31,491 nucleotides of DNA. It comes from Nitrospirota bacterium. Its GTDB lineage: Bacteria; Nitrospinota_A; UBA7883; JACRGQ01. The notes under the pieces were generated by a model. It was not told where the DNA came from. It ran no database searches and was given only the letters and a program-made list of their open reading frames with translations. Positions 1,802 to 22,147 of the stretch are shown here, piece after piece (the stretch's first letter is position 1; each line of letters begins with the position of its first letter). The stretch is taken from contig JAJRYD010000046.1 of the NCBI GenBank assembly GCA_024275955.1, positions 1-31,491 on the forward strand, given 5' to 3'. A program made the translations under genes and the position numbers.

Positions 1802-1820
1802 TTTCTTTTTAATACTGCCG

Positions 1821-3617: not shown

Positions 3618-5499
3618 ACGCCGACTTATCTCCTTCACCTTCTTTGCCTGCTGTTTTATTCAGTTCCTTAATGTTTTTCTCGAACTCTCTCGCAACCTGA
3701 TACACCTCACGGAAAAATATTAACAGCAGTTCGCCGTCGAAGTAATATCTCTTTCGTTTATCAGAAACTTTCGCGGAAGACTGCATTTTCTGAAGCCTGT
3801 CCATCACCTTTTCAAGCCTCCAGTGGTTAATCGAAAGAAAATCTGTTTTTTTCATAATCTCCATCATGTAGCCGGAACAGATAGTCAGGTGCGGCTCCAA
3901 TTCCTTTTCTATTCTACCGTCTTCGCAGAAAAACTGCAGTTCATTCGCCTTTTTTATTCCTAGCGAACAGAGATGCCGTATCTCGGACGTGCTTTTCCCA
4001 AAAGTTTTCAGCTCGCCGAGAATCGCGCCAAAATGATGCCTAGCTGTTCCCCCCGCAAAACTTTCGACTGTTTCCCTAATCTCTTTTTCAGCATTGCCGT
4101 ACCGCGTAACTGTTTCCTGAAGGGTGGCTATTTTCGCGCCCGTGATTTTAGCTCCTCCTTCGGTGGCGTTTACGCAGTCTATACCGCCCTTTTGAATCTG
4201 TATTTCGAACCAGTTTTTCCAAGTAATCATCTTGCCGTTAGAAACAACAGTATGGCCGAGGTTGCCTTCGATACCTCCTTCACTCTCCTTTTCCACCACT
4301 TCCATATGGTGCGACGAACGTGGGGCGACAAAACCGAGCGACGAATAAACCATCTCATCTTTAGAGCCTCCGCTGGCATGCGTTCTGCCTCCGGTAAAAG
4401 CGAGGTCCTGGCCGGCAAGAATTATAGGCGAGCAACCGAGCCTTTTGGCAAAATCGAAAGCAGAGGCGGCTACGGAACCGCCGGTAATGTTTTCACCAAG
4501 CTCTCCTCTAAACTTTTCGATCCATTTAACCATCGGCTCCGTGTAGCTGGTAAACATCATTAAGCCTTTATGATCGGATAATATTCTGGGATATGTAACA
4601 GGGTTCGCCACCAGCGTATAGCTGGCAGAATCGACACCTTCAATATGCGTCCAGTTTTCTATAAGCGCGTCGAGGGAGCAAACGATATGCGGCGCTATGC
4701 CGTTTCTCTCCAAAGTTTTTAAGGCGGTATCGACAGCAATTATAAGCATCGAAGATGAAGCTATTTTTATCCACTTGCAGTTTTTATCAAGAGACGGCCC
4801 AGCCGCCACGATAAGCGCCGGCACTCCTTTCATTTTTCCAAAAGAGTTTTTTATCCCCGCCTTCGCGAAAATGGCCGGAAGGTTGGCGAAGATATTTTTC
4901 TGCCACAACGATGAAAGGCGCGTAATGACCGTTAGATTCTTTTCCGCCATCTCCCTTTGCTTTTCCAGTATTTCGTCTACCCCTCTATAAAAATCGGGGT
5001 CGATACTATACGAAAGATTGTTTTTTATAACCTGAAAATTGGAGCGCGTAAAAACATCGAACTCCTTTTCGAGACGAACCATTACGGCGTCTACAGGGTC
5101 CTCGCCGACGGAAATGCTAAGGCGAGGGTCGGCAAGCTCTTTAGAAAAATCGAATGTTTCTAAAAGCTTTTTAAAAAACTGGGGATTCGATTCTATAAGA
5201 ATAATAAACGCCGTTTTATCGGAGCTTTTTAAAACATCAAAAAGCTGTTCTCCAAGCCCAACGCCTACCAGAATGATAACTTCCGTAAAGCCGAAAAAAT
5301 TTTCCCTAGAGAAAATGTTTTCCACATTGGAAGCACTGCCGTCTTTTTCGAAATAAACCGACTTACCCGAAGAAAGAGATACCTTAAGCCCGTTTTTAAC
5401 CTGACGTACAGTTCCGTCATCCGGCATGGCGGCAAGCCGCTCGGCTAGACACGGCTCTTTTTCTTTTAGCGAGGCAAGGTTTTTCGCCAGACGGTTCAT
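3607..5499 (-). CDS. Maf/DUF115 motility-associated glycosyltransferase-like protein
   Basis: This 630-residue protein has the DUF115 (MptE-like/Maf) core at about 222-385. The signature PALIVAAGPSLDKN is at 227-240, followed by a DTALKTLERNGIAPHIVCSLD stretch in two parts, TGGSVAASAFDFAKRLG, and AGQDLAFTGGRTHASGG. The N-terminal domain has a VGVGLGEQLFDVL loop and an IIESNPQFFKKLL strand. Maf proteins of this size are required for adding nonulosonic acids to flagellin in several motile bacteria, so surface-protein glycosylation is the likely role; the sugar is unknown. The ATG overlaps the preceding stop as ATGA (5496-5499), which indicates translational coupling. The gene end overlaps the CgeB-type gene start. 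No flagellin gene lies in the window. Confidence 0.87.
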   Translation of the reverse strand: MNRLAKNLASLKEKEPCLAERLAAMPDDGTVRQVKNGLKVSLSSGKSVYFEKDGSASNVENIFSRENFFGFTEVIILVGVGLGEQLFDVLKSSDKTAFIILIESNPQFFKKLLETFDFSKELADPRLSISVGEDPVDAVMVRLEKEFDVFTRSNFQVIKNNLSYSIDPDFYRGVDEILEKQREMAEKNLTVITRLSSLWQKNIFANLPAIFAKAGIKNSFGKMKGVPALIVAAGPSLDKNCKWIKIASSSMLIIAVDTALKTLERNGIAPHIVCSLDALIENWTHIEGVDSASYTLVANPVTYPRILSDHKGLMMFTSYTEPMVKWIEKFRGELGENITGGSVAASAFDFAKRLGCSPIILAGQDLAFTGGRTHASGGSKDEMVYSSLGFVAPRSSHHMEVVEKESEGGIEGNLGHTVVSNGKMITWKNWFEIQIQKGGIDCVNATEGGAKITGAKIATLQETVTRYGNAEKEIRETVESFAGGTARHHFGAILGELKTFGKSTSEIRHLCSLGIKKANELQFFCEDGRIEKELEPHLTICSGYMMEIMKKTDFLSINHWRLEKVMDRLQKMQSSAKVSDKRKRYYFDGELLLIFFREVYQVAREFEKNIKELNKTAGKEGEGDKSAYAV

Positions 5500-8400
5500 T
5501 TGGCGGCTTTGGCCTCTTTAACCTTCTCCATAAGGGAAACAGCGCTTTCGTGGTCCTGCTCAAAGAGTAAGATACGGCTGAGGGTATCTTCCGCCTCTTC
5601 CATCTTTTCCTGCTGAAATTGAACACCGGCAAGGCCGAACAGCATATCGAGATTAGCGGGGTGCAGTTCCAGATAGTTTTTTAGCGCGTCTTCCGCCGCG
5701 TCGAGCCTTTTTAGCTCGTAAGAGGCATGAAGTATCGACATTATCGCCGGAATATTTTCCGGGTTTAGCGCGACAGCGTTCATGTAAAGCCCAAAGCCTT
5801 CTTCTTTTTCGCCCAGATGGTACCTTGCCATACCTAGCCCGCAGACAGCGCGGTCGTTATCGGGGTTTATTTTTACAGCCGCTTCGAAGTTTTCGTGAGC
5901 CTGTTTAAAATCTAAAGAGCCAAGACAAAGCGTCCCGATGCCTATGCGGCCGGTTTCGCTATCGGCAATTTTAAGAGAGTTGCGGTAATGCGCGAGCGCT
6001 CCGGCAGGGTTACCCATCTTTTGCATGCAGTCTCCCAGTTTTGAGAGGGCATAGTAGTTCGTCTCATCCAGTTCCAGCGCGCTCTGTGCCGCCTGTAGGC
6101 TAGCCTCGGTGTTATGCGCTTCCCAATGTTCCATGCTTTGCTTTACCGCCCTCTCCGCCGATATCGCGTTAAGCGACTTTTTATAATTAAAACCGCTTCT
6201 CCCGCCGCCTTTCTGTAAAACAGCGATGAAAGAAGCACCAAGCAGTCTGCCCGAATAGACGAGCGATATGCCATTGACCAGTTCTACAAGATTTTTAAAG
6301 CCGTCTATACTGAAAAGGTGAAGGCCGCCGCTATCCGCTTCAGGCGTTGGAAGAACAAGCCCTATAAGCCCCCCATCCTTTAGCGAATCTTTCCATCGGC
6401 AAAGAGTGCCTACAGGGTCAGGATCGTTTTCAAATAGATTAATAGAAGTTATATAATCCAGCCCTTTCATTTTTCCAGCGTCGAATGTTTCCATGCCGTT
6501 AAGCCTAACCCCTTCGCCCCCCTCTACAGGCAAAAGAGCAAACCTTTCCGGTTTGTCATCGCCTTTCGAGTATGTTTCGATAAGCTCCGCAACTCCCGCG
6601 TCGTCTTTTAGCGGCCACCATATCTCGAACGCTTTATAAAGAAGCCCTCTTGCCGCGTACGACAGCCCCAGCAGTTTTTTGTTATCCGCCTTTTTGTAAA
6701 ACTCCTCCGCTTGAGAGAACTTGCCCAGCACCATATTTAGATGACCGGCAAACAAGACCCTCTCGCTTTCGGTTTCATCGGAAAGATTCGGAAGCACAAC
6801 CGGCGTTCCGTTTCCGCCTTTCATCGCCATAACGCCGGCTTTTACAAGCGGGTCGTCTGTTTCTTCATTAAAGAGATTAGAGTCTTCAAGCATTTTTTTG
6901 AACCTGCTTGGGTTGGCGATGTCCGGCTTATCGTTTACAGTTTCTCCCACTTTCCGCGCCGCCCGTATTATGTATTGGAACGCGAAGAACCCGAGCATTT
7001 CATCTTCGTTAAGCGGGCCTACCTGCCAGCGTCCTATCCTCAATGTACCTGAAGCGCCTTCCTTATAGTGATTGTCTACCGTTTTGGAATGGACTTCGTA
7101 ATTGGAAAGCCCAAGCCGTTCGAGCATCTGTCTTATCTCGTAAAGCGTGAAAAAACGCAGGTGGGTTCTGTCGAGCAGGCCCTCATCGGTATATGTCCAT
7201 CTTCCGGCCATCAGCTGGTTTATAACGGTGAAGTGTTGTACGTTTGGGATGCTCATCACCATAAGGCCGTCATCTTTTAACAGCTGTTTATGCTTTTTCA
7301 GCAACGCTTCAGGATTGTTAAGGTGCTCTAGAACGTCGGCATATATAATCGCGTCGAAGTACCGTTTAGGGTAAGGGAGTGTCAGCTTTTCTATATCGCC
7401 GGTAAAGACTTTGTCTAAAACTCCCGAAGCGCTTTTTGCCGCCTCTTTGTTAAACTCCACACCGACTACTTCTCTTCCCTTATTTTGTTCTTTTAAAAGT
7501 TTTCCGGTGCTGCCTGCCCCGCATCCTATCTCCAGTATTTTCATAGCCGATTCCGGTACGAACTCGATAACCTCTACCCTTGCGTGGCTGTAATACGCCT
7601 CTGCCTTTCCCACACGCGGAACAGCTCTCTCTTTTGCTACTTCGCGAACGGTTTTGATAATCTGTTCGACGCGGTGCCTGTATGTGTGATTGGCCAGCAC
7701 CTCTTTCCTTCCTGCCTCTGCTATCGCAAGCCGTTCATCGTCGTTCGCAAGGTAGTGCTTTGCTGTTTTAGCTATATCGGAATCGTTATAGATTACGAGA
7801 TGTTTTTTATCTTCAAAAAATTCCGTAAGCCCGTCCGCCTTGTCTGTCAAGAGCATCGTGCCGGAGCATAGCGCTTCGAACACCCTCATATTCAGGTCGT
7901 CCTTTATTGCGTTATTAAACCCTATTTTGCTGGCACTGAAATGTTCGGTCATCTCTTCAAGGAACAATCTTTGAACATCGACCTTGCAACCGTTGGCATC
8001 GAGATGCTCTAAAAGCTGTTTACGTCTTTGGTGGGCGGGGGTGATGCTACCTACAAACCCTATTTCGCGGATAACATCTACATTCTTCTTGCCATGTATC
8101 TCCGGGTCGCACGCAAGCGGAAGCCAGAAAACATGCTTTATGCCGGAATCTTTAAAAGCATCTATATACTTCCTTTGGGCCAGAAAAACTATATCGAAAC
8201 GCTTTGCGGCTTGTATGTGTGAATCTAAATTAATATGCGTATCTATGAAGTAGGCAACCCTCGGTATCGGAAGCGACTCAATGCCGTTAGGAGGGCCGTC
8301 AAGACCTGTCTCTACCCAGAGGAAAAACTCCGGCTTTTTATCTTTCGGAATCATCTCGAAAATAGAGGAGGCAGACGATGCCGCGCTTCTCGGTATATCC

Positions 8401-9731
8401 TGCTCCTTTATCTCCGCTTTCATGTTCCCTAGGTTCCACATTTCTATCACTTCACGCGTTATGGAGCCGCCGCTGGTTACTACGCTATGCGGGCTTTGAA
8501 TAGCTCTTTTGAGGTAATGCGCCGTCGTGGCAGGATAATAGACATAGTCTATCCATATGTTACACGCTTTGGTTTCGTTCTTTTTTACGGCTGGTTCTTC
8601 ATCAGTCTGGTCAGCCAGAGTTTTAATATCCTCAGCCGGTTCCTTGATGAGAGGTTTTTTGGTTATTACCGGCTCTGTTTTTTTCTCTGAGAGCGTTACT
8701 TCCAATATGTCGGAAGAATCGAACATATCGGAAAGAAGGCCGGTATTTACCTTCGGTTTTCTTTTTGCCGCGGTTTCGATAACCTTTTTCCAGCTTTTGA
8801 TAAATGTTTTAATCGGGAATTTTTTAAATACCGTATCTCTTGCAAGCTTGCCGATATCTCTTGCCTTTTCCTGATCCTTGAGTAGCATCTGTGCCTGTTC
8901 TCTTAGATAACCTATATCGTCGCTTATATATCCTTCTATGCCGTCGGTGATGGGGGATGTACTGTTTGCAAGCGAGAGGATAGGCATGCCGGTAGCCATA
9001 GCCTCGAGCAAGGCAAGGTTGTAGCCGTCCTCATAAGGCTGTTTGGTGGTATTAAGGAAAATCCTGCACCACTTGTAATGATTTTGAAGGTCGGCCCAGC
9101 CGCTGGAGAGGCGGGAATTAAGGGTTGGATTCTGCCCGAGTATCGTGGTGGGAAGTAGCTCGCATATTTTTTCCTGTTCGGTATATCCAAGCATTAAATC
9201 ACGTTCTTTGAGCAGATTTCCAACGCGAAGTATCGTTTCCAGCTGTCCCTGATATCCGCCATACTCGAACGGGTCTATCCCTGGCAGAATGACACGCCCT
9301 CCTTCAAGCCCCCAGTCCTTTTTCTTGCCCTCGGAGATGAAAACAAGGTCTATACCTTCTAGGTGCGATTTTATTTTCTCTCGGTACTCATCCGCGCTCA
9401 CCTTGCTACCGCCAAGCTCTATCTCCGTCGAAAGCCTATTGTGAAAAACCATAACTTTTGGAATCGGCCGGTATTTCGCCGCCTCCAAAACATCTTTGAT
9501 GTTGTGGCAGACGATTACATCTATATCCTTGATACATCGATCGACCTCCTCGGGCTGGATGAGGGTAATATTTTCAGGCAGAGGCCGCATACGCTCATCC
9601 CACCTTCGGTAGTTTTCATCAGCCAGCTTTGGTTCGACAACGAAGAAATGGTGGCCGGTCTTGGCCATCATGCAGAGATACGGCTCGTGCCAGTTGAAAG
9701 ATAGTACCTTAAAAGCGGTAGCGAGGCTCAA
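5496..9731 (-). CDS. Giant fusion: two glycosyltransferases, SAM methyltransferase, methyltransferase-like remnant, TPR
   Basis: This 1411-residue protein opens the glycosylation operon. Residues 1-325 are a GT-B glycosyltransferase (EDGYNLALLEAMATGMPILS near 234-253). A charged linker spans about 326-385. Residues 390-695 are a second, CgeB-type transferase (MRVFEALCSGTMLLTD near 615-630, then NHTYRHRVEQI). Residues 705-925 are a class I SAM methyltransferase with ILEIGCGAGSTGKLL at 732-746 and FDAIIYADVLEHL at 792-804. About 1075-1175 looks like the second half of another methyltransferase fold (a DYITSINLFE strand, then a LKDGG turn) without a glycine-rich SAM motif. Residues 1195-1411 are TPR repeats. 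The start is TTG at 9731 with GGAG (9739-9742) seven bases upstream; there is no ATG between it and the in-frame stop. The TPRs may bind the protein acceptor (inference). Confidence 0.87.
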   Translation of the reverse strand: MSLATAFKVLSFNWHEPYLCMMAKTGHHFFVVEPKLADENYRRWDERMRPLPENITLIQPEEVDRCIKDIDVIVCHNIKDVLEAAKYRPIPKVMVFHNRLSTEIELGGSKVSADEYREKIKSHLEGIDLVFISEGKKKDWGLEGGRVILPGIDPFEYGGYQGQLETILRVGNLLKERDLMLGYTEQEKICELLPTTILGQNPTLNSRLSSGWADLQNHYKWCRIFLNTTKQPYEDGYNLALLEAMATGMPILSLANSTSPITDGIEGYISDDIGYLREQAQMLLKDQEKARDIGKLARDTVFKKFPIKTFIKSWKKVIETAAKRKPKVNTGLLSDMFDSSDILEVTLSEKKTEPVITKKPLIKEPAEDIKTLADQTDEEPAVKKNETKACNIWIDYVYYPATTAHYLKRAIQSPHSVVTSGGSITREVIEMWNLGNMKAEIKEQDIPRSAASSASSIFEMIPKDKKPEFFLWVETGLDGPPNGIESLPIPRVAYFIDTHINLDSHIQAAKRFDIVFLAQRKYIDAFKDSGIKHVFWLPLACDPEIHGKKNVDVIREIGFVGSITPAHQRRKQLLEHLDANGCKVDVQRLFLEEMTEHFSASKIGFNNAIKDDLNMRVFEALCSGTMLLTDKADGLTEFFEDKKHLVIYNDSDIAKTAKHYLANDDERLAIAEAGRKEVLANHTYRHRVEQIIKTVREVAKERAVPRVGKAEAYYSHARVEVIEFVPESAMKILEIGCGAGSTGKLLKEQNKGREVVGVEFNKEAAKSASGVLDKVFTGDIEKLTLPYPKRYFDAIIYADVLEHLNNPEALLKKHKQLLKDDGLMVMSIPNVQHFTVINQLMAGRWTYTDEGLLDRTHLRFFTLYEIRQMLERLGLSNYEVHSKTVDNHYKEGASGTLRIGRWQVGPLNEDEMLGFFAFQYIIRAARKVGETVNDKPDIANPSRFKKMLEDSNLFNEETDDPLVKAGVMAMKGGNGTPVVLPNLSDETESERVLFAGHLNMVLGKFSQAEEFYKKADNKKLLGLSYAARGLLYKAFEIWWPLKDDAGVAELIETYSKGDDKPERFALLPVEGGEGVRLNGMETFDAGKMKGLDYITSINLFENDPDPVGTLCRWKDSLKDGGLIGLVLPTPEADSGGLHLFSIDGFKNLVELVNGISLVYSGRLLGASFIAVLQKGGGRSGFNYKKSLNAISAERAVKQSMEHWEAHNTEASLQAAQSALELDETNYYALSKLGDCMQKMGNPAGALAHYRNSLKIADSETGRIGIGTLCLGSLDFKQAHENFEAAVKINPDNDRAVCGLGMARYHLGEKEEGFGLYMNAVALNPENIPAIMSILHASYELKRLDAAEDALKNYLELHPANLDMLFGLAGVQFQQEKMEEAEDTLSRILLFEQDHESAVSLMEKVKEAKAAK

Positions 9732-9893: not shown

Positions 9894-10280
9894 ATGCTCA
9901 AATTGATTTATATAGCGCTCGGCGGGGCTATCGGTTCTTTGCTCAGGTACTCGGTTTCCGGTTTTGCGCAAAGGCTCTCCTCGCCCTCTTTCCCTGCCGG
10001 CACGCTGGCGGTAAATGTTATCGGCGCTCTTGCCGTCGGGTTTTTATGGGCGATGTTTGAACGAAGCGTAGTAGCCCCGAATGTTAGGGCATTTATGCTT
10101 ATCGGCGTTCTGGGAGCTTTTACCACTTTTTCGACATACAGCCTCGAAAGCTTTAACCTTCTGCGCGATGGCGAAATAAAGCTTGCCGCCATAAATATCA
10201 TCGCCAGCAACGTCCTTTGCATCGCTATGGTTTTTGCCGGTTTTGCCATCTCTAAAGCTGTTTTAACGGCAGGAAGGTAG
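9894..10280 (+). CDS. crcB: CrcB/Fluc fluoride channel
   Basis: At 128 residues with four predicted membrane helices, this is the normal size for CrcB (Fluc), a dimeric channel that lets fluoride leave the cytoplasm. Family motifs are clear: GGAIGSLLRY near 10-19, NVIGALAVGF near 41-50 with the conserved Asn, and the signature GVLGAFTTFSTYSLESF near 71-87 with its phenylalanine/threonine pore residues. The ATG at 9894 follows GAAAGG by six bases. The next gene, a DUF190 protein, starts seven bases after the stop, a pairing often seen for this family. Confidence 0.95.
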   Translation: MLKLIYIALGGAIGSLLRYSVSGFAQRLSSPSFPAGTLAVNVIGALAVGFLWAMFERSVVAPNVRAFMLIGVLGAFTTFSTYSLESFNLLRDGEIKLAAINIIASNVLCIAMVFAGFAISKAVLTAGR

Positions 10281-10287
10281 ATAAAAA

Positions 10288-10626
10288 ATGAAACTACCGG
10301 AAAATGGAAGCCTCTTACGAGTTTTCGTAGGGGAAAACGACAATTGCGGTGGAAAAGCTCTTTACGAAGCGATTGTCATAAAGGCGCGGGAGCTCAATCT
10401 TGCCGGCGCTACGGTACTGAGGGGGATCATGGGGTTTGGAGCTGGTTCACAGGTGCATACAGCCAAGATTCTTATGCTTTCGGAAGATTTGCCTATAGTG
10501 GTCGAGATAGTTGATACAAGAGAAAACCTAGAGAAGCTAATACCGTTCCTAAATGAAAACGTAGAAGAAGGCGTTGTTACGATTGAGAATGTGGAGATGA
10601 TAAAATACCGCCACAAAGAGAGCTGA
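10288..10626 (+). CDS. DUF190 family protein (PII-like fold)
   Basis: This 112-residue protein has the DUF190 pattern: an N-terminal LLRVFVGENDNCGGKALYEA strand-helix segment, the central GATVLRGIMGFGAGSQVHTA motif, then LPIVVEIVDTRENLEKLIPF and a final VTIENVEMIKY strand. DUF190 proteins are small PII-like proteins often encoded beside crcB, and a role in modulating fluoride export is suspected but unproven. AGGAAGG inside the end of crcB serves as ribosome binding site, so the two are co-translated. The biochemical activity is unknown. Confidence 0.88.
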   Translation: MKLPENGSLLRVFVGENDNCGGKALYEAIVIKARELNLAGATVLRGIMGFGAGSQVHTAKILMLSEDLPIVVEIVDTRENLEKLIPFLNENVEEGVVTIENVEMIKYRHKES

Positions 10627-12036: not shown

Positions 12037-12605
12037 TCGGCACATGCCTCGTGATGGTGCATACAACCTTTAAGGTAGGCGGTATCGTTTCCTTAAGCTT
12101 TTGGTCTATGGTGCTGGTCGCTGGAAGCGGGGTGATAGGCAGATACATATATATACAGATACCGCGCAACGTATCGGGAAACGAATTGCGGATAGACGAG
12201 ATAAAAGAGGTGATGGAAGATGTAAATAGAAAAATAGAGGAATACGCCGGTGACAACCAGAATATTCTGCGCTACTTCGAGCTGATTTCAGGCCCTAAAA
12301 ACAGTGAGGAGATGGGGGCGACTAGAACTATTTTTACGATGTTTTTTAATGACTTGTCTAACATAAAAAAGATGATTTCGATTAGGGGTGAACTGCGTCG
12401 AAACCAAGATATGCCGCCAGCGGTAAAAAAAGAGCTTTTCAAACTGATAAGGGAAAAGGGGAGCCTTGTAAGGTCTTCCAACTTTCTTAACAGCTCTCAC
12501 AAGCTTCTCCATTACTGGCATGTTTTTCACAAGCCTTTCGCTATTATCATGTTCGTAATTATGTTTTTGCATATAGCGGTAGCTGTCGTTTTTAAGGCGC
12601 ACTGA
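11916..12605 (+). CDS. Cytochrome b-like membrane protein, C-terminal part (frameshifted)
   Basis: This open frame nominally starts at 11916, but only the part from about 11997 is the true continuation of the gene starting at 11698. It encodes helices with candidate haem histidines (LDFHIFLGVVGTCLVMVHTTF) and SFWSMVLVAGSGVIGRYIYI, then a cytoplasmic helical segment of about 100 residues. It ends with HYWHVFHKPFAIIMFVIMFL, another His-rich helix. The exact function is unknown; a quinone- or ferredoxin-linked transmembrane electron carrier fits the next gene. The stop overlaps the following ATG region (TGATG at 12603-12607). Confidence 0.68.
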   Translation: MDRNRRFCYDDALLRTQTFCFYAGCWQLRYWLDFHIFLGVVGTCLVMVHTTFKVGGIVSLSFWSMVLVAGSGVIGRYIYIQIPRNVSGNELRIDEIKEVMEDVNRKIEEYAGDNQNILRYFELISGPKNSEEMGATRTIFTMFFNDLSNIKKMISIRGELRRNQDMPPAVKKELFKLIREKGSLVRSSNFLNSSHKLLHYWHVFHKPFAIIMFVIMFLHIAVAVVFKAH

Positions 12606-13963
12606 TGACCGATTTTTTTATCAAGCTCATTATGGATAACGCCGTTCTGATAACCGGCACTCTGCTTATGCTGGTGACGGTAGTGCCATACATGGTGATA
12701 CATAACAAAAACACGAAAAAGATGCAGGTGAAACAGGTCGAGGCCGAGCAGTACGGCCTTGCCGAGCCTGTTACCATCCACCCTCATGTAAATAGAGGTG
12801 TCTGCATAGGAAGCGGAGCCTGCATAACAGCCTGTCCCGAGAAAGATATTCTTGGCCGTATTAGAGGCAAGGCCGAGGCTGTTTACGCCTCGCGCTGTGT
12901 GGGGCATGGTGCCTGTGCCAGAGCCTGCCCTACGGGGGCTATCGAGCTGGTATTCGGCACCGAAAAGCGGGGGGTGGAACTGCCGCAGGTCTTCCCTAAT
13001 TTCGAGACGAATGTAAAACAGCTTTTCATAGCCGGAGAGCTTGGCGGCATGGGGCTTATCAAAAACGCTATGACGCAGGGACAGGAAGCTATCCAGTACA
13101 TAAAAGAAGACTACAAAAAAAACGGATACAAGCCAAAAGAGGGAATGCTCGACATCCTTGTTGTTGGGGCCGGACCGGCAGGGCTTGCCGCCACATTACA
13201 GGCGATAAAAGAGAAACTAAAATCGGCTACTCTCGACCAAGAAGATACCTACGGCGGGGCGATACTCTCCTACCCCCGCGCGAAGCTGGTGATGACCAGA
13301 CCTGTAGATGTGCCTCTCTATGGAAGGATTAAGAGGAGGGAGTACTCTAAAGAAGAGCTGATAAAGCTATGGGACGATATAGCCAAAAAAACCTCATTAA
13401 AAGTAGATGCCAATGAAAAGGTTATAGAAGCTAGGAAAGAAGAAGAGAGTAACGGCAAAAGCTTCTTCATGGTTAAAACATCTAAGCGCGATATTAAGAC
13501 CAGATACCTCCTTCTCTGCATAGGCAGACGGGGCACGCCGAGAAAGCTCGGCGTGCAGGGAGAAAAACTCCCAAAAGTTATGTACCGGATGCTGGAGCCG
13601 GAAAAATATGCTAACCAAAAGGTCCTAATAGTAGGCGGCGGCGACAGCGCGGTGGAGGCGGCGACTGCTATTAGCTCGCAAAAAGGGACGGAAGTTACCC
13701 TCTCGTACAGAAAAGGGGTTTTCTCGCGGATAAAGCCTGCCAACCAGCAAAGAATAGAAAAAGCTTTCGACTATGGAGAGGTAAAACCGCTTTTAAGCTC
13801 GACCGTAAAAGAGATAAGACCGAAATCTGTAATAATAAGTACCGAAGACGGGAGCGTAGAGCTGGAAAACGACTCGGTTTTTATCTTCGCCGGCGGAGAA
13901 CTGCCGAACGACTTTCTTAAAAAAGTCGGCATCAATATAGAAACAAAATTCGGCACCTCGTAA
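12605..13963 (+). CDS. Membrane-anchored ferredoxin - FAD/NAD(P) oxidoreductase
   Basis: This 452-residue protein has one membrane helix at about 10-33. An iron-sulfur segment follows with two motifs, CIGSGACITACP at 67-78 and CVGHGACARACP at 98-109. A thioredoxin-reductase-like flavoprotein comes next, with the FAD loop GAGPAG near 188-193 and the NAD(P) loop GGGDSA near 344-349. The redox CxxC of thioredoxin reductase is absent; the region resembles YpdA-type reductases (TYGGAILSYPRAKLVMTRP). In both iron-sulfur motifs the usual second Cys is replaced, by Ser70 and His101. I recall the same pattern in relatives, so this is probably a family trait. It likely passes electrons between NAD(P)H or ferredoxin and the cytochrome b partner encoded just upstream. 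Confidence 0.82.
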   Translation: MTDFFIKLIMDNAVLITGTLLMLVTVVPYMVIHNKNTKKMQVKQVEAEQYGLAEPVTIHPHVNRGVCIGSGACITACPEKDILGRIRGKAEAVYASRCVGHGACARACPTGAIELVFGTEKRGVELPQVFPNFETNVKQLFIAGELGGMGLIKNAMTQGQEAIQYIKEDYKKNGYKPKEGMLDILVVGAGPAGLAATLQAIKEKLKSATLDQEDTYGGAILSYPRAKLVMTRPVDVPLYGRIKRREYSKEELIKLWDDIAKKTSLKVDANEKVIEARKEEESNGKSFFMVKTSKRDIKTRYLLLCIGRRGTPRKLGVQGEKLPKVMYRMLEPEKYANQKVLIVGGGDSAVEAATAISSQKGTEVTLSYRKGVFSRIKPANQQRIEKAFDYGEVKPLLSSTVKEIRPKSVIISTEDGSVELENDSVFIFAGGELPNDFLKKVGINIETKFGTS

Positions 13964-13983
13964 AAAGTTAAGCCTGTCAGGCT
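13960..13983 (-). terminator. Possible terminator after the WD40-GTPase-cyclase gene
   Basis: An AGCCT/AGGCT hairpin with a GTC loop (13971-13983) begins at the last base of the stop codon. On the minus strand it is followed by TAACTTTTTA. The stem is short, so it is a weak candidate. It lies in the 19-base gap between two converging genes. Confidence 0.35.
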
Positions 13984-16900
13984 CAAACGACAGACCAGAT
14001 GGTATGTCTGCCCGGCATCCCTTTAAGTTCGCAATCTCTATAATCTTTCCATTCGATATCTGTCCTCAGCATTTCACCATCATCCAATGCGTCTATTTTT
14101 GAACTGTCGCTAAGCCATATACCGCCAGCCTTAGCAATATCGTGGCCGACTATCCTTGCCGTATATGCCACGTCCAGGCCGGATATATCGTTTTCTTTTA
14201 TAATTACCGTGCCGGAATGGATGCCGACGCGTATCTTTACAAGTTCGTGGCCGGCATTTTCCGAAAGTCCCAGCGCAAAATCGAGCCCGTTAGAAGCAGT
14301 GGGGAAAACCGCCATCACCTCATCGCCTATAAGCTTTACCCTATAGCCGTTAAAATTCTTAGTAAGCTGGTAGCTACGCTCAAAAAAGAGATCCAGAACC
14401 CTGTCCGATTCCATATCTCCCAGTTTCAACACAAGGCCGGTGTAGTCCATCACATCGGCAAATACGATGGTAAGCGGGGCGGTATCTGTCCATTTGTTCT
14501 TTTTCACCCACTGCCTAAAGCTCATCGATCTTTTTATACCGCCGGAGACAGAAAGCATCTCGGCATTCATTCTTATTCTTTTTCTAGATGCTTTTTCTAT
14601 CTCTTTCACCCTCTCTTCAAAATTTCCGCCTTCTGCCTCGGAAGTCTCCCACGACAAGGCAAGCGGTACCGGCGTTCCACAGCTCATGCAAAAAACATTC
14701 TCTTTGCCCTGCTCTATAGACTCCTCTATTATCTCGGCATCCTTTATCTCCTTTTCGCAGTTGGAACAGCTGTAGGAGAACTTTCTCTGTATCTTTACAT
14801 TCTTCTCTTCAAGGTGGTTGGTTATAAGCTTTATAAAAAGAGCCTTATCCTGCTCGCTGGTATCGTTGCCAAAAAAGACTTTCATGGTGCCGAACCCTTC
14901 GCGCGAATCTATAAGCTTAAGACCGCACAAACTTCCGTCAGGAGATATAAACTGGGCCGCGTTTTTATAAAGCTCCTTTAGCTCGAAGCCTCCGCCGTAG
15001 TAGAACTTTACAACGAGGGTGGAATAAACATTCTCCACCATCCCGCCTAGTTCAAATTCTACATTCTCAAGTGTTTCATCTTCAGGAGTTTCCATTTGCC
15101 TATTAAGTTTGGTTGGAAATACAAGGTTACCGTCTTGTTCGAATGCCAGCCTATGCTCAAGTATCATCTCCACCGTTGCAAGTAGCAGGTAGGTCAAGTC
15201 GCCGTCACTTATCTTTTCCGTACTGTTAAGGTGAATAACCCCGGAGAGGACATCCTCCTTATCTACACGGCCAAGCCCCTCATGGTGGTCGCGCGCGCTG
15301 TCTATAATGTCCGAAGCCAGCCCGTTTAGGTATTTCGGAAAAAGTAAAACCAAATCTCCAAAAGAAAATATTTTTATAGAGCCGGTATTTTCCACAAGGT
15401 GCAGTACCGCGTCAAACTGTTCCTGCTCTATCTCTTTTTGTGTTTCCTTTAAGAACATACTAAAAAGCTCTTTGCGGCCGGCGATATTGAGATTCTCCTG
15501 TTTCTTTTTTTCCAGCCATTTTTTTACGTCCCTAAAAAGCTCCGGGCTGGAGGTGGCCGATATCTTTTCCCACGGAATCAGTTTGTTAAGACTGTTCATA
15601 AGTTTGTTGCATCCGGTGCCATCCTTGGCGCTCGTCTCGAAATGACCGATATAGCTGTTATCTTTGCAGTAGGTTTCTATCACCTCGTCGGTATGGCGCA
15701 CCCTGCCTACATCAACCCTGCCGGCAACCAAAAATTTTAAGTAGTCTTTACCGGAAAGTACATGATCGAGCGAACTCTCCCAGTATTTAACGCCGGTAAA
15801 ATGTCTATCCGATTTATCTGGGTCGTAAAGGATAAGCGCGACGGAGGTTTCATTTAAAAACATCTGGTGTATAAGCCTATAGTCGTCCTGGCCGGCAAAG
15901 TCCCAAAGGAGTATCTCCCGCTCGCTATCTTCGCTTAACGGCATTACCATATTTTCCATACCGTGCGTGGATCCGCCGGTATCTACAACCCATTCCCCAA
16001 GAGCCAGCCTATGGGCAAGGCCTGTCTTTCCGACACTGCTATCGCCTACAAGCACAACCTTCGCATTTTTATAAAGCGTTGTTTCTGACAGAGGCTTAAG
16101 GTTAAGCAGAGTGTCGGTATCAAGCTCCCATATCCGTATCGAGGTTTCCGGCTCCATCCCTTCTCCGTCGCCCAGCGTCGCCAGAACCGGCTTTTGCGGA
16201 TGGAACGAAATGGCGGAAGGAAGAAGCTCTAATGACGATTCATCTATGGAAACTATACATTCCCATGTGTCACACTTCCATAGGCGGACGGTATTATCGG
16301 CCGATTTGGAAGCGAGCAGAGTCGCGTCGGAATTGAAAGTAAGGCTCTTAACAGATGCTGTGTGACCTTCTAATGTCATAAAAAGTTTTCCGCTGGCGCG
16401 TTCCCATATCTTTATCGTTTCATCTTTGGAGGCTGTGGCGAGAATATCTCCCGTTGGCGACCACTCTACGCAGGAAACAGGGCTGGCATGCCCTTCCAAA
16501 GTTTTTAAACGCTTCCCGTTAGAGCCGTCCCAGATAACCGCAGTGCCGTCGCGCGACGCGGAAGCGAGAAATTTCCCATCCCGTGAAAATGAGATATCCG
16601 AGACCATCTCGGTATGTCCTCTTTGCGCCCTAAGCCTTCTTAACCCGGAGAGGTTCCAGACCTGCACCACATTATCCCACGAGGCGGCCGCTATATGGTT
16701 TCCAAACCATGAAATAGAGATAGCCGGCCCTGTCTCGACATCAATACGCTTAAGCTCTTTTCCGCTCTTCCAGTCCCAAATTCTTATCGTCTGATCCCAC
16801 GAAGCGGAAGCTACAGATTTACCATCTGGAGACCACTCAATATCCAACACAGCTCCATCATGCTGGTCAAACAGTGATATCTGCTCCATGCTTTGAGAAG

Positions 16901-17045
16901 ACCATATACGGGCGGTACCATCTCTGGATGTAGAGGCGAACTGCCTGCCGTCAGGCGACCAGAAAACCCCAGTAACCTGCTTTTTATGAACACTTATCGA
17001 ACCGGAAAGCTCGTATCCTCGGCTGTTTTTAGTTTTTTTAGACAA
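13983..17045 (-). CDS. WD40 propeller - Ras-like GTPase - zinc ribbon - class III adenylate cyclase fusion
   Basis: This 1020-residue protein has seven WD40 repeats (about 13-318, one full propeller). A Ras/ROC-like GTPase (327-495) has P-loop GDSSVGKT at 334-341, DFAGQ at 382-386, TSAK at 471-474 and an abnormal G4 (AGRVD, 441-445). A helical/winged region (500-650) and a beta region (655-750) follow. A zinc ribbon uses C760, C763, C786 and C789. A class III cyclase (857-1020) has metal aspartates D864 and D908 and the adenine-selecting pair K904 and D953. The transition-state Arg964 is present, but the usual Asn is Ala960. ATP is the likely substrate. No membrane segment is seen. The start is TTG at 17045, since an in-frame TGA lies 12 bases upstream and the next ATG is inside repeat 2. 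It would turn a WD40/GTPase signal into cyclic nucleotide (inference). Confidence 0.88.
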   Translation of the reverse strand: MSKKTKNSRGYELSGSISVHKKQVTGVFWSPDGRQFASTSRDGTARIWSSQSMEQISLFDQHDGAVLDIEWSPDGKSVASASWDQTIRIWDWKSGKELKRIDVETGPAISISWFGNHIAAASWDNVVQVWNLSGLRRLRAQRGHTEMVSDISFSRDGKFLASASRDGTAVIWDGSNGKRLKTLEGHASPVSCVEWSPTGDILATASKDETIKIWERASGKLFMTLEGHTASVKSLTFNSDATLLASKSADNTVRLWKCDTWECIVSIDESSLELLPSAISFHPQKPVLATLGDGEGMEPETSIRIWELDTDTLLNLKPLSETTLYKNAKVVLVGDSSVGKTGLAHRLALGEWVVDTGGSTHGMENMVMPLSEDSEREILLWDFAGQDDYRLIHQMFLNETSVALILYDPDKSDRHFTGVKYWESSLDHVLSGKDYLKFLVAGRVDVGRVRHTDEVIETYCKDNSYIGHFETSAKDGTGCNKLMNSLNKLIPWEKISATSSPELFRDVKKWLEKKKQENLNIAGRKELFSMFLKETQKEIEQEQFDAVLHLVENTGSIKIFSFGDLVLLFPKYLNGLASDIIDSARDHHEGLGRVDKEDVLSGVIHLNSTEKISDGDLTYLLLATVEMILEHRLAFEQDGNLVFPTKLNRQMETPEDETLENVEFELGGMVENVYSTLVVKFYYGGGFELKELYKNAAQFISPDGSLCGLKLIDSREGFGTMKVFFGNDTSEQDKALFIKLITNHLEEKNVKIQRKFSYSCSNCEKEIKDAEIIEESIEQGKENVFCMSCGTPVPLALSWETSEAEGGNFEERVKEIEKASRKRIRMNAEMLSVSGGIKRSMSFRQWVKKNKWTDTAPLTIVFADVMDYTGLVLKLGDMESDRVLDLFFERSYQLTKNFNGYRVKLIGDEVMAVFPTASNGLDFALGLSENAGHELVKIRVGIHSGTVIIKENDISGLDVAYTARIVGHDIAKAGGIWLSDSSKIDALDDGEMLRTDIEWKDYRDCELKGMPGRHTIWSVV

Positions 17046-17126
17046 CTTTGCAACTCACTCCAAAAAAATAATTCGCCATTCCGCCAAAAACGGTGTTCAA
17101 GCAGACGTTATGATTTTATAGACCAA

Positions 17127-17145
17127 GAATATTAGCACGATATTC
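17127..17145. promoter_or_regulatory. Inverted repeat GAATAT-N7-ATATTC upstream of the cyclase gene
   Basis: A perfect 6-bp inverted repeat with a 7-base centre sits about 82 bases before the TTG start, just upstream of a TATAAA-like element on the minus strand. It could be an operator for the cyclase gene; AT-rich chance is also possible. Confidence 0.25.
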
Positions 17146-17260
17146 CAGAATTTATTAGGACGCAAACACGAAAAAGCAAAGAACCACGAGAGAAGAGCAA
17201 AAGATAGAAAAACCAGAGAGATTCAATCACAGCTTTAAGGCAAACAGTTTCGGCCGTTTT

Positions 17261-17488
17261 TTTTTAAACCTACATCCCCCGCCTCTGGCTGAAACTAAAA
17301 GGAAGCAGGGGCGAGGCACAGCAGAACTATAACTACTCAATAAGAGTGTGAGAACAGATAAACCCAAACGGTTTTTTTAAAACCTACATCCCCCGCCTCT
17401 GGCTGAAACTAAAAGGAAGCAGGGGCGAGGCACAGCAGAACTATAACTACTCAATCAGAGTGTGAGAACAGATAAACCCAAACGGTTT
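17261..17488. repeat. 114-bp tandem repeat with a strong hairpin in each copy
   Basis: Two nearly identical copies (about 17261-17374 and 17375-17488, differing mainly at AATAAGAG/AATCAGAG) follow at exactly 114 bases. Their shared start also matches the last 20 or so bases of the outer-membrane protein gene, again 114 bases on (CCCCC at 17276, 17390 and 17504). Each copy contains a long stem at 17277-17316 and 17391-17430: about 12 pairs, one mismatch and one bulge, closing a 13-base loop. On the minus strand each copy has a degenerate coding end, G-G-G-C-R-F-stop, beside G-G-Y-K-F-stop of the real gene. The repeats therefore look like duplicated 3' ends plus untranslated region. Confidence 0.8.
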
Positions 17489-17490
17489 TT

Positions 17491-18783
17491 TTAGAACTTG
17501 TATCCCCCAAGAAGGAATAATGACGAAGACTTATACTCCGTACCGGGCGAACCTGTCGGGGTATAGATGCTGTTTACATCCACATATTTTTCGTTGGAAA
17601 CTTCGTACTGGCCGGTAATGTAAAATTTCTTTCCTGAAAACCAGCTTAAGGAAGCGGCGTACATATTCTGCTCCAGTTTGTAATTAGCCCCTTCGGCTTT
17701 ATTTTCCATCTTCGTTATGCTCAGCTCGCCGGAAAAGTTCCGCGGCAGGTTGGCACCCAAGGCACCACGATAATGCGTGCCGGATGAGGTGAAATGTTTA
17801 AGAATCCTGTACGAAAAATCTGCGTATCCCATCTTCATGAGATTTCTTTCCCTGTAGCCAAAACGGTAGGTGGAGGCGGTTTTGTTGTCTCTTTCCCTTG
17901 TCCGCTGGTCAAAATTAGCGGAAACGGTAGAATTTTTTCTCACCCTGTAGCTTCCCGAAAGTCTTATCGTTTTCTGTAGTTCTCTGTTTATGCTGTAATC
18001 CATCGACTCCCACAGCTGTACCGCCCTGTACTGGCTGTATACAGCCCCCACACGGCCTTTACGGCCTAACTGGTAGTTTACGCTTGCCATTAGGTTTGTC
18101 ATCTCGTAGCCGCCGCTTTTCTTGCGGTCGCTCCTAAGGCTTCCGTAAAGGCTGGTCTGCTGGCTTGGCCTGTAGTCTCCCCTGCCATAGAGGTACGACT
18201 GGTCTTCCTTCCCCTTGTACATTGATGTGGTGTACCCGCCGGAAAAGCCGTAGTATTTATCTCTTTTGTAAGCAAAAAAGCCGAGGGTGACAAACTCTCC
18301 AGACATAATGTCTTTTACAGGATCGGGCTGTGTGCCGCCAAAGATGCCGACACCTGTTTTCTCTCCAAGGCGGTGTTTTAGCTGAACGCCGTCAACGCGC
18401 GACCCGAAGGTATGGCGCACATACTGCCTGCCGACAACCATATCGGTCTTGTCGAATAGGAAATCACCTATCTCAAGATTCGCGTCCTGAATCCTGTAGT
18501 CTGGTGTAGAGGAGTTGTAATCTTTCCCGCCGGTCTGGCGCATCCTTCCGTCGAAGTTGAAAGTCATATCACGCTCTTTAGAAATCTCGCTCACTTTGAG
18601 CCTTAGCCTCTCATTGGTGAAGGTATATTTCTGGTTGGCACTGTCGTCGTTACGCTGATAGTAGGAGGCGGTAAACCTGCCAGAAATCTTCTCCGCGTGC
18701 GCAATGCCGGAAAGTGAAAGGATCGGAATCACAGCCAACGCTATCAGTACTCTTTTGCCATTCACCAGTTTAATACTCTCCAT
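17491..18783 (-). CDS. Outer-membrane beta-barrel protein next to the multiheme cytochrome
   Basis: The preferred start is ATG at 18783, which gives 430 residues beginning MESIKLVNGKRVL. A typical signal peptide follows (LIALAVIPILSLSGIAHA, cut before E). An in-frame upstream start at 18825 would lie inside the cytochrome gene. The mature protein alternates hydrophobic and polar residues, is rich in Tyr, Gly, Arg and Ser, and ends in GGYKF with a C-terminal Phe, the usual signal for outer-membrane barrel insertion. No haem motif is present. It starts seven bases after the cytochrome stop, so the two are one operon. This fits a porin-cytochrome pair, although it is shorter than MtrB-type porins (about 700 residues). 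It is not recognisable as a named family. Confidence 0.82.
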   Translation of the reverse strand: MESIKLVNGKRVLIALAVIPILSLSGIAHAEKISGRFTASYYQRNDDSANQKYTFTNERLRLKVSEISKERDMTFNFDGRMRQTGGKDYNSSTPDYRIQDANLEIGDFLFDKTDMVVGRQYVRHTFGSRVDGVQLKHRLGEKTGVGIFGGTQPDPVKDIMSGEFVTLGFFAYKRDKYYGFSGGYTTSMYKGKEDQSYLYGRGDYRPSQQTSLYGSLRSDRKKSGGYEMTNLMASVNYQLGRKGRVGAVYSQYRAVQLWESMDYSINRELQKTIRLSGSYRVRKNSTVSANFDQRTRERDNKTASTYRFGYRERNLMKMGYADFSYRILKHFTSSGTHYRGALGANLPRNFSGELSITKMENKAEGANYKLEQNMYAASLSWFSGKKFYITGQYEVSNEKYVDVNSIYTPTGSPGTEYKSSSLFLLGGYKF

Positions 18784-18790
18784 TTCTCTA

Positions 18791-21700
18791 TTACCTGTCA
18801 AAGGTGCTTGTATTGTGACATTCAAGACACCTGCCCCATTGACCGGTCGGATGGTCGGAAGGTCCTTCTTTATTCCAGTCGCTCACATGACAGAAATAGC
18901 AGTCGGCGTTCGTAGTCGAGGTCATATCGGTAACATTACTGGTCGCTCCGCCGGTACCGCCCCTAATAGCCTTTATGTTATTGCTTCCCGCCTCGTGGCA
19001 TGTACTACACGAGCTTTTCAATGATGCGTGCGCGCCGGTGAATGTCATTATCGTATGGCTGAATACCCCCTGACTCCAAAGCGTGTGGGAAGCAAAATGA
19101 CAGCTTGTACATGGAGTGTTGCCTGCAAAAGTGCTGTGAGCCGTCGCAGAATTTCCTGCCGCCACGTCGTACTGCGTTTTGTGGCAAAGCTGGCAATCTG
19201 TATTAGCCGAGATGGCGCTACTTGCCCCTCCGCCGCTTTGGTTATACGGGCTCTTTATCTGCGTAGCATCGGAGGCAACATGACAGTTTGTGCATGCTGT
19301 TGCGGAAGCGGTATGCGCGCCGGCAAACGTCCAGCTTCCATGCGTATAGCTAGCCGCGCCGAATGTCGCGTCCGAAGCTGTATGACAGCCGGACGCCGCG
19401 CAATCGCTTGCGCTTGTTTTGCCTGTATGGGCAACACCGGCATTGGATGTAGCCGACGAGAAGCTGGCCGAATGACAGCTGGCGCAATCGTTAATTGTAG
19501 TAGCTCCGCCTATAAGCGCTACTGAGCCGGTAAGGTGGCATGAAGTACAGCTACCGCTTTTTACCGACGCCTCGTGCTGGCCGGACAGGACAGATGAATG
19601 GCCGGATAACGCCTGTTGCCACGTTGCATAGCTTTCTAGGTGGCAGTTTACGCAGGCCGAAGCACTTGTGCTGTTGCCATGCCCTATCGCGGCATTTGCG
19701 TTGGCTCCAGCGGCAGGAGCAAAGTTTGCCGCGTGGCATTGCTCGCAATCTGTGGATGTAGTTGAGGCAGTAGCCGATCCTTTGGTCAACGCCCATGTAG
19801 GTGAACCGCCGGAGTGGCACGAGGTACAGCTTAGCGAAGTCCTAAGCGAATTATGCGCGCCCGAAAAACTCCATGCCGAGTGCTGATAATCGGCAGGTGT
19901 CGAGTTGTATGTCTTGTGGCAGTCTTGGCAGTTCGTATTAGCCGAAGAGCTGTGTACAACGTTTGAGGCTGAATAAACGAACGAACCTCCCCTTGTACTG
20001 TCTGCGTTGTGGCAGTCTACGCAGTCCCTTTCCGCCAGCCTATACTCACGGTTAAGGTGACAGCTCTGGCATTCGGCAACCCTGTGCTGACCTTCCAGCC
20101 TAAAAGTTGTCATGCCGTGCTTGAATTTGGTCGGTGTCCAGTCTAGCGCCGAATGGCAATCGTCGCATGTGGTGCCTAGCTGGTTGAAATGCGGATCTAT
20201 GTGGCAAGAGGTACAATCGGTGCCATTAAGCCCGCCAAAAATCCCAGGCTCTTTATGGCAATCTTTGCATCCTTGCTGAGTATGAAGCCCTTCGAGCGGG
20301 AAGCCGGTAAGGTTATGAAAATTTCCTTTGGGAGCCCACGCAAACGAATCGTGACACTCCTTACAGTTTGCGCCAAGAGAGCCTTTGTGTTTATCGTCTT
20401 TTCTATGGCAGTCGATACATTCCGACTTGAGCGGTTTATACTTACCTTTTTTGTGGCACTTGTCGCATTTTGCTTTCGCATGCTTGCCTTCCAGCTTGTA
20501 TTTGCTCTGCTTGTTATGCTCGAATAAAAGCTTCTTCCAGTCGGCAGTGATATGACAGCTCGCGCACTTTTTATCCTTAAATTGGCTTCCGTGGACGGTA
20601 CCGCCACGCGCCTTAGTATCGTGACAGCCTGAGCCGTTGCAGGTATCGGTTTTGATAGGCTTGTAAACTACCTTGCGGTCTTTGCCTTTGGTATGGCACT
20701 TTTCGCACTTAGCCTCTTTATGTTTTCCGGTAAGCTTGTAGCCGCCGTATGTAGGCGAATTATGGTTAAATACCGACGGTTTCCAGCCCTTTACCGTATG
20801 GCAGTCTTCGCACTTTTGGCCCTTGAACTGCTTACCATGAGCCTTTCCGCTTTTGGATGCCGAATCGTGGCACCCTTTCACGTTACAGCTGGAGGAGTTT
20901 ATCGGCTTATAAACTACCGTTTTTGTTCCCCGCTGAGGCTTGTGACAATTTAGACACTTTACTTCGGTATGCTTACCTTCCAGCTTGTATCCAGCGTACT
21001 TCTTCGAGCTGTGATTAAAGGTTGTCGGCTTCCAGCCCTTTACCGTATGACAATCGTCGCACTTTTTGCTTTTGAACTGCGTGCCGTGTATGTTCCCCCT
21101 GCTTTTTGTATCGTGACAGCCTTTACCACTGCATGTCTCATAGTTTATCGGCTTGAAGTGCGGAACTTTGGTTACCGGATCGCGCTTATGACACTTGTCG
21201 CACTTCACTCTGGCATGCTTGCCGGTAAGCTTGTAGCCTTTATAGGAGGGGGCGTTATGGTTGAACTTAGTCGATTTCCATCCGTCCACTGTATGACAAT
21301 CTGCGCATTTCTGATCCTTAAATTTGTTTCCATGCACTAAGCCGCCCCGTGCCTTCGTATCGTGACAGCCCGATGCGTTACATGTCGAATAATCTTCGAC
21401 TTTGTAAATCCCCTTTTTATTGCCTTTTTGCGAATGGCACTTTTCGCATGTCACTTTCATATGCTTGCCGAGAAGCTGATACTTGGTGCTGTCGTGTTTG
21501 AACTTTAGGTCTTTCCAGTTTTTCTCCGTATGACAGCTTTCGCACTTCTTGCCGAGGGTGCCTTTATGGATGTCATGTTTTTCATGACAGGAAAGACATT
21601 TCGTATCAAGCCCTAAATATGATGTCTGGTTTTTCTTTGTCTTTATCGTGTGGCACTTTTTGCAGTCGGTCGTCTTATGCTTTCCAAGCAGAATGTAGCC

Positions 21701-22081
21701 GGATTTTTTATGATCAAAATCCTTTTCTTTCCACTCAATAAGAGTAAATTTTCGTCCCTTGTGATCCGAGTGGCAAGAGATACATTTATCCTTGCTTACA
21801 GTTGCGTGGTAGCCTTTATTGGCCGATATTCTCTTGCCTATATCCTTATGACAGTCGAGACAGCTGTCGTTTTGAATACCGCCGCGAATAGAGTGACACT
21901 TGGTGCAGTTGGTGATTCCGTCGACAGATTCGTGAAGCCAAGAGAGTTCTCCCGGCGATATAAGGCTACCAAAACTCTTCTCCGCGAAGGAAGGGGCAGA
22001 AAAGGAAAACAGCAGTGCCGTGAAAACCAGAAGAAAACCGGATACCACCCTACCGCTAGAAAAGATCACGCTTTTATTCAA
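18791..22081 (-). CDS. Giant secreted multiheme c-type cytochrome, about 39 haem sites
   Basis: By hand count there are 34 CXXCH motifs and 5 CX4CH motifs (NASG, SGKG, NVKG, NGSG and AASG between the cysteines). I choose TTG at 22081: GGGGA lies nine bases upstream, and the product begins with a good signal peptide (FLLVFTALLFSFSAPSFA, cut before E). The longest frame starts at GTG 22138 but has no ribosome binding site and nearly coincides with the predicted transcription start. The first two thirds is Lys-rich and built from about 82-residue repeats with three haem sites each. From about residue 693 the protein turns Ser/Ala/Thr-rich and nearly Lys-free. There is no C-terminal anchor. Extracellular or outer-surface electron transfer with the barrel protein is likely. 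Confidence 0.93.
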   Translation of the reverse strand: MNKSVIFSSGRVVSGFLLVFTALLFSFSAPSFAEKSFGSLISPGELSWLHESVDGITNCTKCHSIRGGIQNDSCLDCHKDIGKRISANKGYHATVSKDKCISCHSDHKGRKFTLIEWKEKDFDHKKSGYILLGKHKTTDCKKCHTIKTKKNQTSYLGLDTKCLSCHEKHDIHKGTLGKKCESCHTEKNWKDLKFKHDSTKYQLLGKHMKVTCEKCHSQKGNKKGIYKVEDYSTCNASGCHDTKARGGLVHGNKFKDQKCADCHTVDGWKSTKFNHNAPSYKGYKLTGKHARVKCDKCHKRDPVTKVPHFKPINYETCSGKGCHDTKSRGNIHGTQFKSKKCDDCHTVKGWKPTTFNHSSKKYAGYKLEGKHTEVKCLNCHKPQRGTKTVVYKPINSSSCNVKGCHDSASKSGKAHGKQFKGQKCEDCHTVKGWKPSVFNHNSPTYGGYKLTGKHKEAKCEKCHTKGKDRKVVYKPIKTDTCNGSGCHDTKARGGTVHGSQFKDKKCASCHITADWKKLLFEHNKQSKYKLEGKHAKAKCDKCHKKGKYKPLKSECIDCHRKDDKHKGSLGANCKECHDSFAWAPKGNFHNLTGFPLEGLHTQQGCKDCHKEPGIFGGLNGTDCTSCHIDPHFNQLGTTCDDCHSALDWTPTKFKHGMTTFRLEGQHRVAECQSCHLNREYRLAERDCVDCHNADSTRGGSFVYSASNVVHSSSANTNCQDCHKTYNSTPADYQHSAWSFSGAHNSLRTSLSCTSCHSGGSPTWALTKGSATASTTSTDCEQCHAANFAPAAGANANAAIGHGNSTSASACVNCHLESYATWQQALSGHSSVLSGQHEASVKSGSCTSCHLTGSVALIGGATTINDCASCHSASFSSATSNAGVAHTGKTSASDCAASGCHTASDATFGAASYTHGSWTFAGAHTASATACTNCHVASDATQIKSPYNQSGGGASSAISANTDCQLCHKTQYDVAAGNSATAHSTFAGNTPCTSCHFASHTLWSQGVFSHTIMTFTGAHASLKSSCSTCHEAGSNNIKAIRGGTGGATSNVTDMTSTTNADCYFCHVSDWNKEGPSDHPTGQWGRCLECHNTSTFDR
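20561..21540 (-). repeat. About 246-bp tandem repeats inside the multiheme cytochrome gene
   Basis: Four copies are anchored by the CX4CH-D codons at 20621, 20867, 21113 and 21362, with spacings of 246, 246 and 249 bases (82-83 residues). The outer limits are approximate. Each unit encodes GYKL-x-GKH, KC-x-x-CHK, a CX4CHD site, HG-x-x-FK-x-x-KC-x-x-CHT and GWK-x-x-x-FNH. DNA identity is visible by eye, for example the repeated TTTACCGTATG.CA stretch, which suggests recent expansion. Confidence 0.75.
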
Positions 22082-22147
22082 GTTGTATATTCCCCAAAAA
22101 GCAATAAATACCGCTACCTTGCTCACACCCCAGAACACGGAAATGTG

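Follow-up and report, generated by a model that had tools for sequence, protein, structure and literature searches.

The window, by which we mean the whole 31,491-nucleotide stretch of DNA that was analysed, encodes a protein of the Roco class in which a WD40 propeller, a Roc GTPase, a COR domain, a zinc ribbon (ZnR) and a class III cyclase follow one another in a single chain. With modest confidence, we lean towards reading it as a single-chain, mobile receptor of conflict or stress, in which a signal sensed by the propeller would be turned into cAMP through cyclase pairing controlled by Roc-COR. Within this reading we infer that the propeller binds a ligand, that the dimer is controlled, that the cyclase is active and that the protein serves in defence.

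A sequence-only reading of this DNA, which named no strand, had proposed a 1020-residue open reading frame at this place; the frame is indeed there, on the minus strand, and its features are collected in Table 1. As an in-frame stop lies immediately before the TTG start (open frame 1023), this TTG is the sole start that retains the first blade of the propeller. The G+C content of the gene equals that of the host (47.3%), so any transfer of the gene was probably not recent. The full-length AlphaFold model, built with 52 relatives, has a mean pLDDT of 89.2 and a pTM of 0.79, and lays out a propeller (residues 11-308), a GTPase (~322-489), an alpha/beta region that extends to ~752, the Cys ribbon, the helix that follows it and a cyclase that ends at 1019. 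According to this, the WD40 domain, the GTPase, the four-Cys ribbon and the class III cyclase named in the sequence-only reading all stand, and what had been described there as a helical region turned out to be the COR domain.

Table 1. Features of the WD40-Roc-COR-ZnR-cyclase gene and of its insertion site (window positions).
Feature	Position	Strand	Basis
Whole gene, 1020 aa, WD40-Roc-COR-ZnR-class III cyclase	13983..17045	-	ORF and AlphaFold model
GGAGTG, likely ribosome-binding site, 10 nt upstream of the TTG start	17056..17061	-	Direct sequence reading
Seven-blade WD40 propeller, residues ~10-312, putative sensor	16110..17018	-	Pfam PF00400 (E 5e-58); model
Roc/Ras-like GTPase, residues ~321-490	15576..16085	-	Pfam; conserved G1, G3 and G5
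COR domain, residues ~491-752, putative dimer and switch transmission	14790..15575	-	AlphaFold, Foldseek, VIA
Four-Cys zinc ribbon, residues ~755-795 (C760, C763, C786, C789)	14661..14783	-	Cys conservation
Long helix, residues 809-837, joins ribbon to cyclase	14535..14621	-	Secondary structure of the model
Class III cyclase domain, residues ~850-1020	13986..14498	-	Pfam PF00211, alignments, PDB match to Ma1120
Segment that two relatives, G002 and G006, lack at the corresponding site (gene and 0.45 kb upstream)	13964..17490	.	Flank spacing in L150 and L151

The propeller region of the model contains 28 strands, that is, seven blades, which together with the Pfam WD40 match bears out the blade number proposed before, and its best fold match is the WD40 domain of the prokaryotic protein 5yzv (TMt 0.95). 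The GTPase is matched at residues 329-488 by both the Ras and the Roc models of Pfam (PF00071, E 3e-20; PF08477, E 4e-17). The P-loop and the DFAGQ motif, which had been described as intact, can be read directly at 334-341 (GDSSVGKT) and 382-386, and are followed by ETSAK at 470-474; the residues of G1, G3 and G5 are invariant or nearly so among 53 aligned sequences. At G4, where NKxD is expected, the protein has RxD (RVD, 443-445), and this arginine is invariant in all 53. Further along the chain, each cysteine of the ribbon is kept in 51-53 of the same 53 sequences, the Pfam matches for the ribbon being suggestive only.

The assignment to the Roco class depends on what follows the GTPase. 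A Pfam scan of the protein gave no sequence match to the COR model. Residues 490-800 modelled separately (AlphaFold pLDDT 89.3) returned the COR domain of Chlorobium tepidum Roco at ranks 1 to 5 in Foldseek (E 7e-10 to 2e-9), with LRRK2 next. In VIA, the same model superposed on 3dpu_B with Z 14.2 and rmsd 8.2 over 284 of 311 residues (12% identity), and the best unrelated rows, winged-helix domains, reached Z ~9 over 70 residues. The high rmsd, though the whole length is covered, points in the model to a flexible domain made of two parts. Because a COR fold stands directly after the GTPase, the latter is a Roc domain, and both anatomical marks of Roco proteins are present: a Ras-like Roc with P-loop and DxxGQ, and a COR immediately behind it. 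The N-terminal LRR that defines group 1 of the prokaryotic Rocos is absent, a WD40 propeller being in its place. In this regard, a review of 2019 described every identified prokaryotic Roco as LRR-Roc-COR (PMC6337361). The protein resembles C. tepidum Roco (LRR-Roc-COR; PDB 3DPU, 3DPT, 6HLU) and LRRK2 in having Roc and then COR of the same fold, and also in its predicted nucleotide-controlled dimer switch, and differs from them in the WD40 domain that replaces LRR at the N-terminus and in RxD at G4, whereas those proteins lack the zinc ribbon and the cyclase. This family is thus not LRR-Roc-COR but a new layout, with WD40 in place of LRR plus a zinc ribbon and an effector, that falls within the Roco proteins and does not form a separate category. 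CtRoco is a dimer when apo or GDP-bound and a monomer with GTP (PMC5714945), and by homology the Roc-COR module of our protein would therefore be a nucleotide-controlled dimer switch. Since GTP monomerises CtRoco, GTP could, by analogy, turn the cyclase either on or off.

The relatives of the protein are scattered, and their outputs differ. In its own phylum no close relative of the same architecture was found among 24 genomes, which held only small separate cyclases, and the gene occurs in one of the 24. Scanning genome contigs with one single sequence gave no matches. A plasmid search with the part from Roc onward found proteins of Calothrix NIES-4101 (37%, E 2e-76) and Nostoc C057 (32%, E 1e-69), both with the WD40-Roc-COR-ribbon core, to which the Calothrix protein adds a C-terminal TIR and the Nostoc protein a metallophosphoesterase plus CHAT. 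A profile of the shared core (alignment A1) run against the contigs of GTDB species recovered at least 250 relatives; 80 of these loci were kept, chosen for two short peptide patterns (one of them LWD[LF]AGQ[PD]) and for their similarity to the query alignment, so that this census is biased and the proportions that follow are not frequencies. Their hosts include Acidobacteria, Armatimonadetes, Verrucomicrobia, Planctomycetes, Proteobacteria, Bacteroidetes, Poribacteria, Methanothrix and Methanosarcina. With phmmer, the Roc and COR domains of the window were found in all 80 kept relatives, WD40 in 79 and the cyclase in 21, and the four domains stood in the same order in 20 of the 80. This search for the domain order, which had been proposed as a check, therefore shows an architecture spread over many bacterial phyla and methanogens, though no characterised member was found, and the fusion is not the singular one it had seemed. 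The earlier interpretation of the chain as sensor, switch and second-messenger enzyme is well supported by the domain order, the model and these 20 relatives. Five relatives (L124, L076, L086, L091 and L120) carry ~550-700 additional residues N-terminal to the propeller.

Most relatives without a cyclase have TIR in the same C-terminal slot, and a few have DUF4365, a phosphorylase or other effectors. Pfam on 76 tails, that of the window included, gave TIR_2 in 55, cyclase in 20, DUF4365 in 3, and DUF4062, PNP and AAA_15 in one each; cyclase and TIR occur together in some tails, e.g. in L071 and L092. In a maximum-likelihood tree of the core (69 rows, 495 columns), L124, a cyclase-bearing member from Acidobacteria, forms a pair with the protein of the window (47% identity, SH-aLRT 100). 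Gain and loss of the cyclase on this tree takes at least 6 changes, a figure to be read as an estimate because 18 forks are weak. Between the cyclase members of Methanothrix, Bacteroidota, Verrucomicrobiota and Betaproteobacteria the core branches measure ~0.1-0.3, and such short branches across phyla are read as horizontal transfer. As far as sequence comparison goes, the Roc-COR core would serve as a general switch, and the effector that occupies its output slot varies from genome to genome.

The exchange of effectors, the patchy spread across phyla and the variable insertion site described below suggest a mobile receptor for conflict or stress responses. There is a precedent in Kaur et al. 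2020, who placed cNMP cyclases, TIR, PNP and COR-linked AP-GTPases among the parts of predicted prokaryotic conflict systems (PMC7159879). Our protein and those COR-linked AP-GTPases (PMC7159879) are alike in combining a Roc/AP-GTPase with COR; the latter were described in Cyanobacteria and Verrucomicrobia, and the same class of systems has cyclase, TIR and PNP effectors. They differ in that the AP-GTPases of Kaur et al. are parts of MoxR-vWA ternary systems, whereas in our case sensor, switch and effector are all encoded by a single gene, and no MoxR AAA+ or vWA genes were found among the neighbouring ORFs of the window that were scanned. The genomic neighbourhood gives the conflict reading no support. 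PADLOC matched 17 model families among 87 proteins near family members and 21 among 119, including type I RM, MADS, RT, pAgo and Septu, against 68 among 136 ORFs of random stretches, a rough control taken from other genomes. Enrichment in defence islands was accordingly discarded as support, the random stretches having given more matches. No homologue was found in phage records.

The main alternative is that the same switch serves ordinary signalling and feeds a general cAMP-CRP network on a metabolic or developmental cue, with no role in conflict. Such a role would suit the 13 cNMP-binding domains of the genome, which are able to read cAMP, and its three further class III cyclases, as well as the host-like G+C content and the lack of PADLOC enrichment; the outputs of the relatives, mostly TIR and other conflict-type effectors, the presence in a single genome of the 24 and the variable insertion site argue against it, and we consider it rather unlikely. 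The conflict or stress receptor that we favour may also be set beside Pycsar, in which a cyclase (PycC) makes cCMP or cUMP and an effector with the receptor is encoded next to it. The two are alike in an output of the class III cyclase type (weak PADLOC match, E 9e-4). In our protein, by contrast, the K and D residues are of the adenine type and there is no adjacent receptor, as no gene for a cNMP-binding domain or a cAMP-receptor effector was found beside it among the neighbouring window ORFs scanned.

The cyclase itself is matched by PF00211 (Guanylate_cyc) with E ~1e-9 and keeps, in alignments, the metal-binding D864 and D908, the adenine residues K904 and D953, and R964, in agreement with the class III domain recognised before. 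Of the usual Asn-Arg pair only Arg964 is kept, with Ala960 at the position of the transition-state Asn; the closest relative, L124, has Asn there. Loss of this Asn raises the alternative that the domain is dead or a mere nucleotide-binding regulatory module, in line with Kaur et al. (PMC7159879), who report that the cyclase domain of certain conflict proteins is inactive, and with the relative L074, from an Acidovorax MAG, in which, at residues ~1048-1595, a cyclase that has clearly lost both metal Asp is followed by a nucleoside-phosphorylase domain, as if the dead cyclase had been retained as a linker to a new effector. The closest solved cyclase is Ma1120 (PDB 4WP3, 4WP8, 4WP9; E 8e-12), a class III adenylyl cyclase of Mycobacterium avium that shares exactly this active-site set, K, D, Ala in place of Asn, and R, along with both metal Asp, and whose solved chains are without WD40, Roc and COR. 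Ma1120 is active with Ala, and changing Ala to Asn lowers its adenylyl cyclase activity by 91% at pH 7.5 (PMC4215837). On these data an inactive cyclase was dropped as the leading view and, given the retained residues, we regard it as improbable; the protein, with the same set, is predicted from its sequence to be active and to prefer ATP.

Class III cyclases need paired domains, and the active sites of homodimers form at the interface. TIR enzymes likewise act when assembled, so that a switch over pairing would suit cyclase and TIR alike, and this may explain why they share a slot. For the conflict or stress receptor, we propose that a ligand, probably a protein, would bind the N-terminal propeller and, by homology, alter the nucleotide of Roc or the state of the Roc-COR dimer. 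As the model suggests, a rearranged COR and zinc ribbon would then bring two cyclase domains into register through the long helix, and the pair, judging by its residues, would turn ATP into cAMP. The latter could act as an alarm signal read by some of the cNMP-binding domains of the genome.

More tentatively, and short of what we would call probable, the protein may stand for an undescribed large family of single-gene, immune-type prokaryotic receptors present both in methanogenic archaea and in many bacterial phyla. Their WD40-gated dimer switch, a Roc-COR of the LRRK2 type, would drive interchangeable effectors activated by assembly (TIR, cyclase, nuclease-like, PNP, CHAT), with cAMP as the alarm in the present case. 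A description of such a family, as WD40-GTPase-cyclase or as Roco with an anti-phage role, was not found in open-licence full texts, an absence that weighs little, and the open-licence literature yielded no functional data on it. With these proteins the prokaryotic Rocos extend beyond the LRR-Roc-COR arrangement of the 2019 review (PMC6337361), and the nucleotide state of Roc-COR could be read directly, as cAMP or as loss of NAD, in small soluble proteins. In LRRK2, the control of an attached output by the nucleotide state of Roc-COR is still debated, kinase activity being the main readout. If the conflict reading is true, prokaryotic receptors would have Roc-COR as a switch alongside the STAND NTPases, which would also fit the links of some eukaryotic Roco proteins to death and immunity.

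Lastly, the gene lies between an operon on the plus strand that ends in a 4Fe-4S/FAD reductase (12605-13963) and, on the minus strand, the genes of a 444-aa protein and an 1115-aa multiheme cytochrome. In two relatives, G002 and G006, the genes of the reductase and of the 444-aa protein point towards each other with ~80 bp between their aligned ends (gaps from 3048 to 3132 in L150 and from 2546 to 2634 in L151), as compared with 3.5 kb in the window. Two other relatives have different contents in the gap: in G004, ~2.8 kb with a small pair that by eye is nucleotidyltransferase-like and HEPN-like and looks like a toxin-antitoxin system (L152, 3108-3801), and in G007, an unrelated 360-aa ORF (L153, 5054-6136). 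This intergenic slot is a possible insertion hot spot and, being variable, makes the redox neighbours uninformative on function. Clustering of neighbours revealed no partner gene common to members across phyla, only lineage-specific runs, e.g. in Nostocales and Chloroflexi. The hint of the sequence-only reading that the protein senses electron transfer or surface contact in connection with the flanking redox operons, drawn from its position between them, is thus very improbable, as the operons stand side by side without the gene in some relatives, others have different genes in the gap, and no neighbour is shared across the phyla.

Several other features of the locus were observed. The interval that separates the 444-aa gene from the WD40 gene contains a 114-bp sequence repeated head to tail (17255-17482); its two copies are 97% identical, and each has a G+C-rich stretch resembling an inverted repeat and a run of T; a related 43-bp piece has two nearby copies elsewhere in the genome (C22). 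The 1115-aa cytochrome is related to MtrC/MtrF and adjoins the 444-aa protein (17491-22138), which is without a Pfam match and reads like a beta-barrel, and the pair is conserved in the relatives examined. At 9894-10626 a CrcB fluoride exporter gene is followed by a DUF190 gene. Finally, large glycosyltransferase genes occupy the minus strand at 167-9731, in a cluster reminiscent of flagellin glycosylation that encodes MptE/Maf-like proteins as well as a glycosyltransferase-methyltransferase-TPR fusion of 1411 aa.
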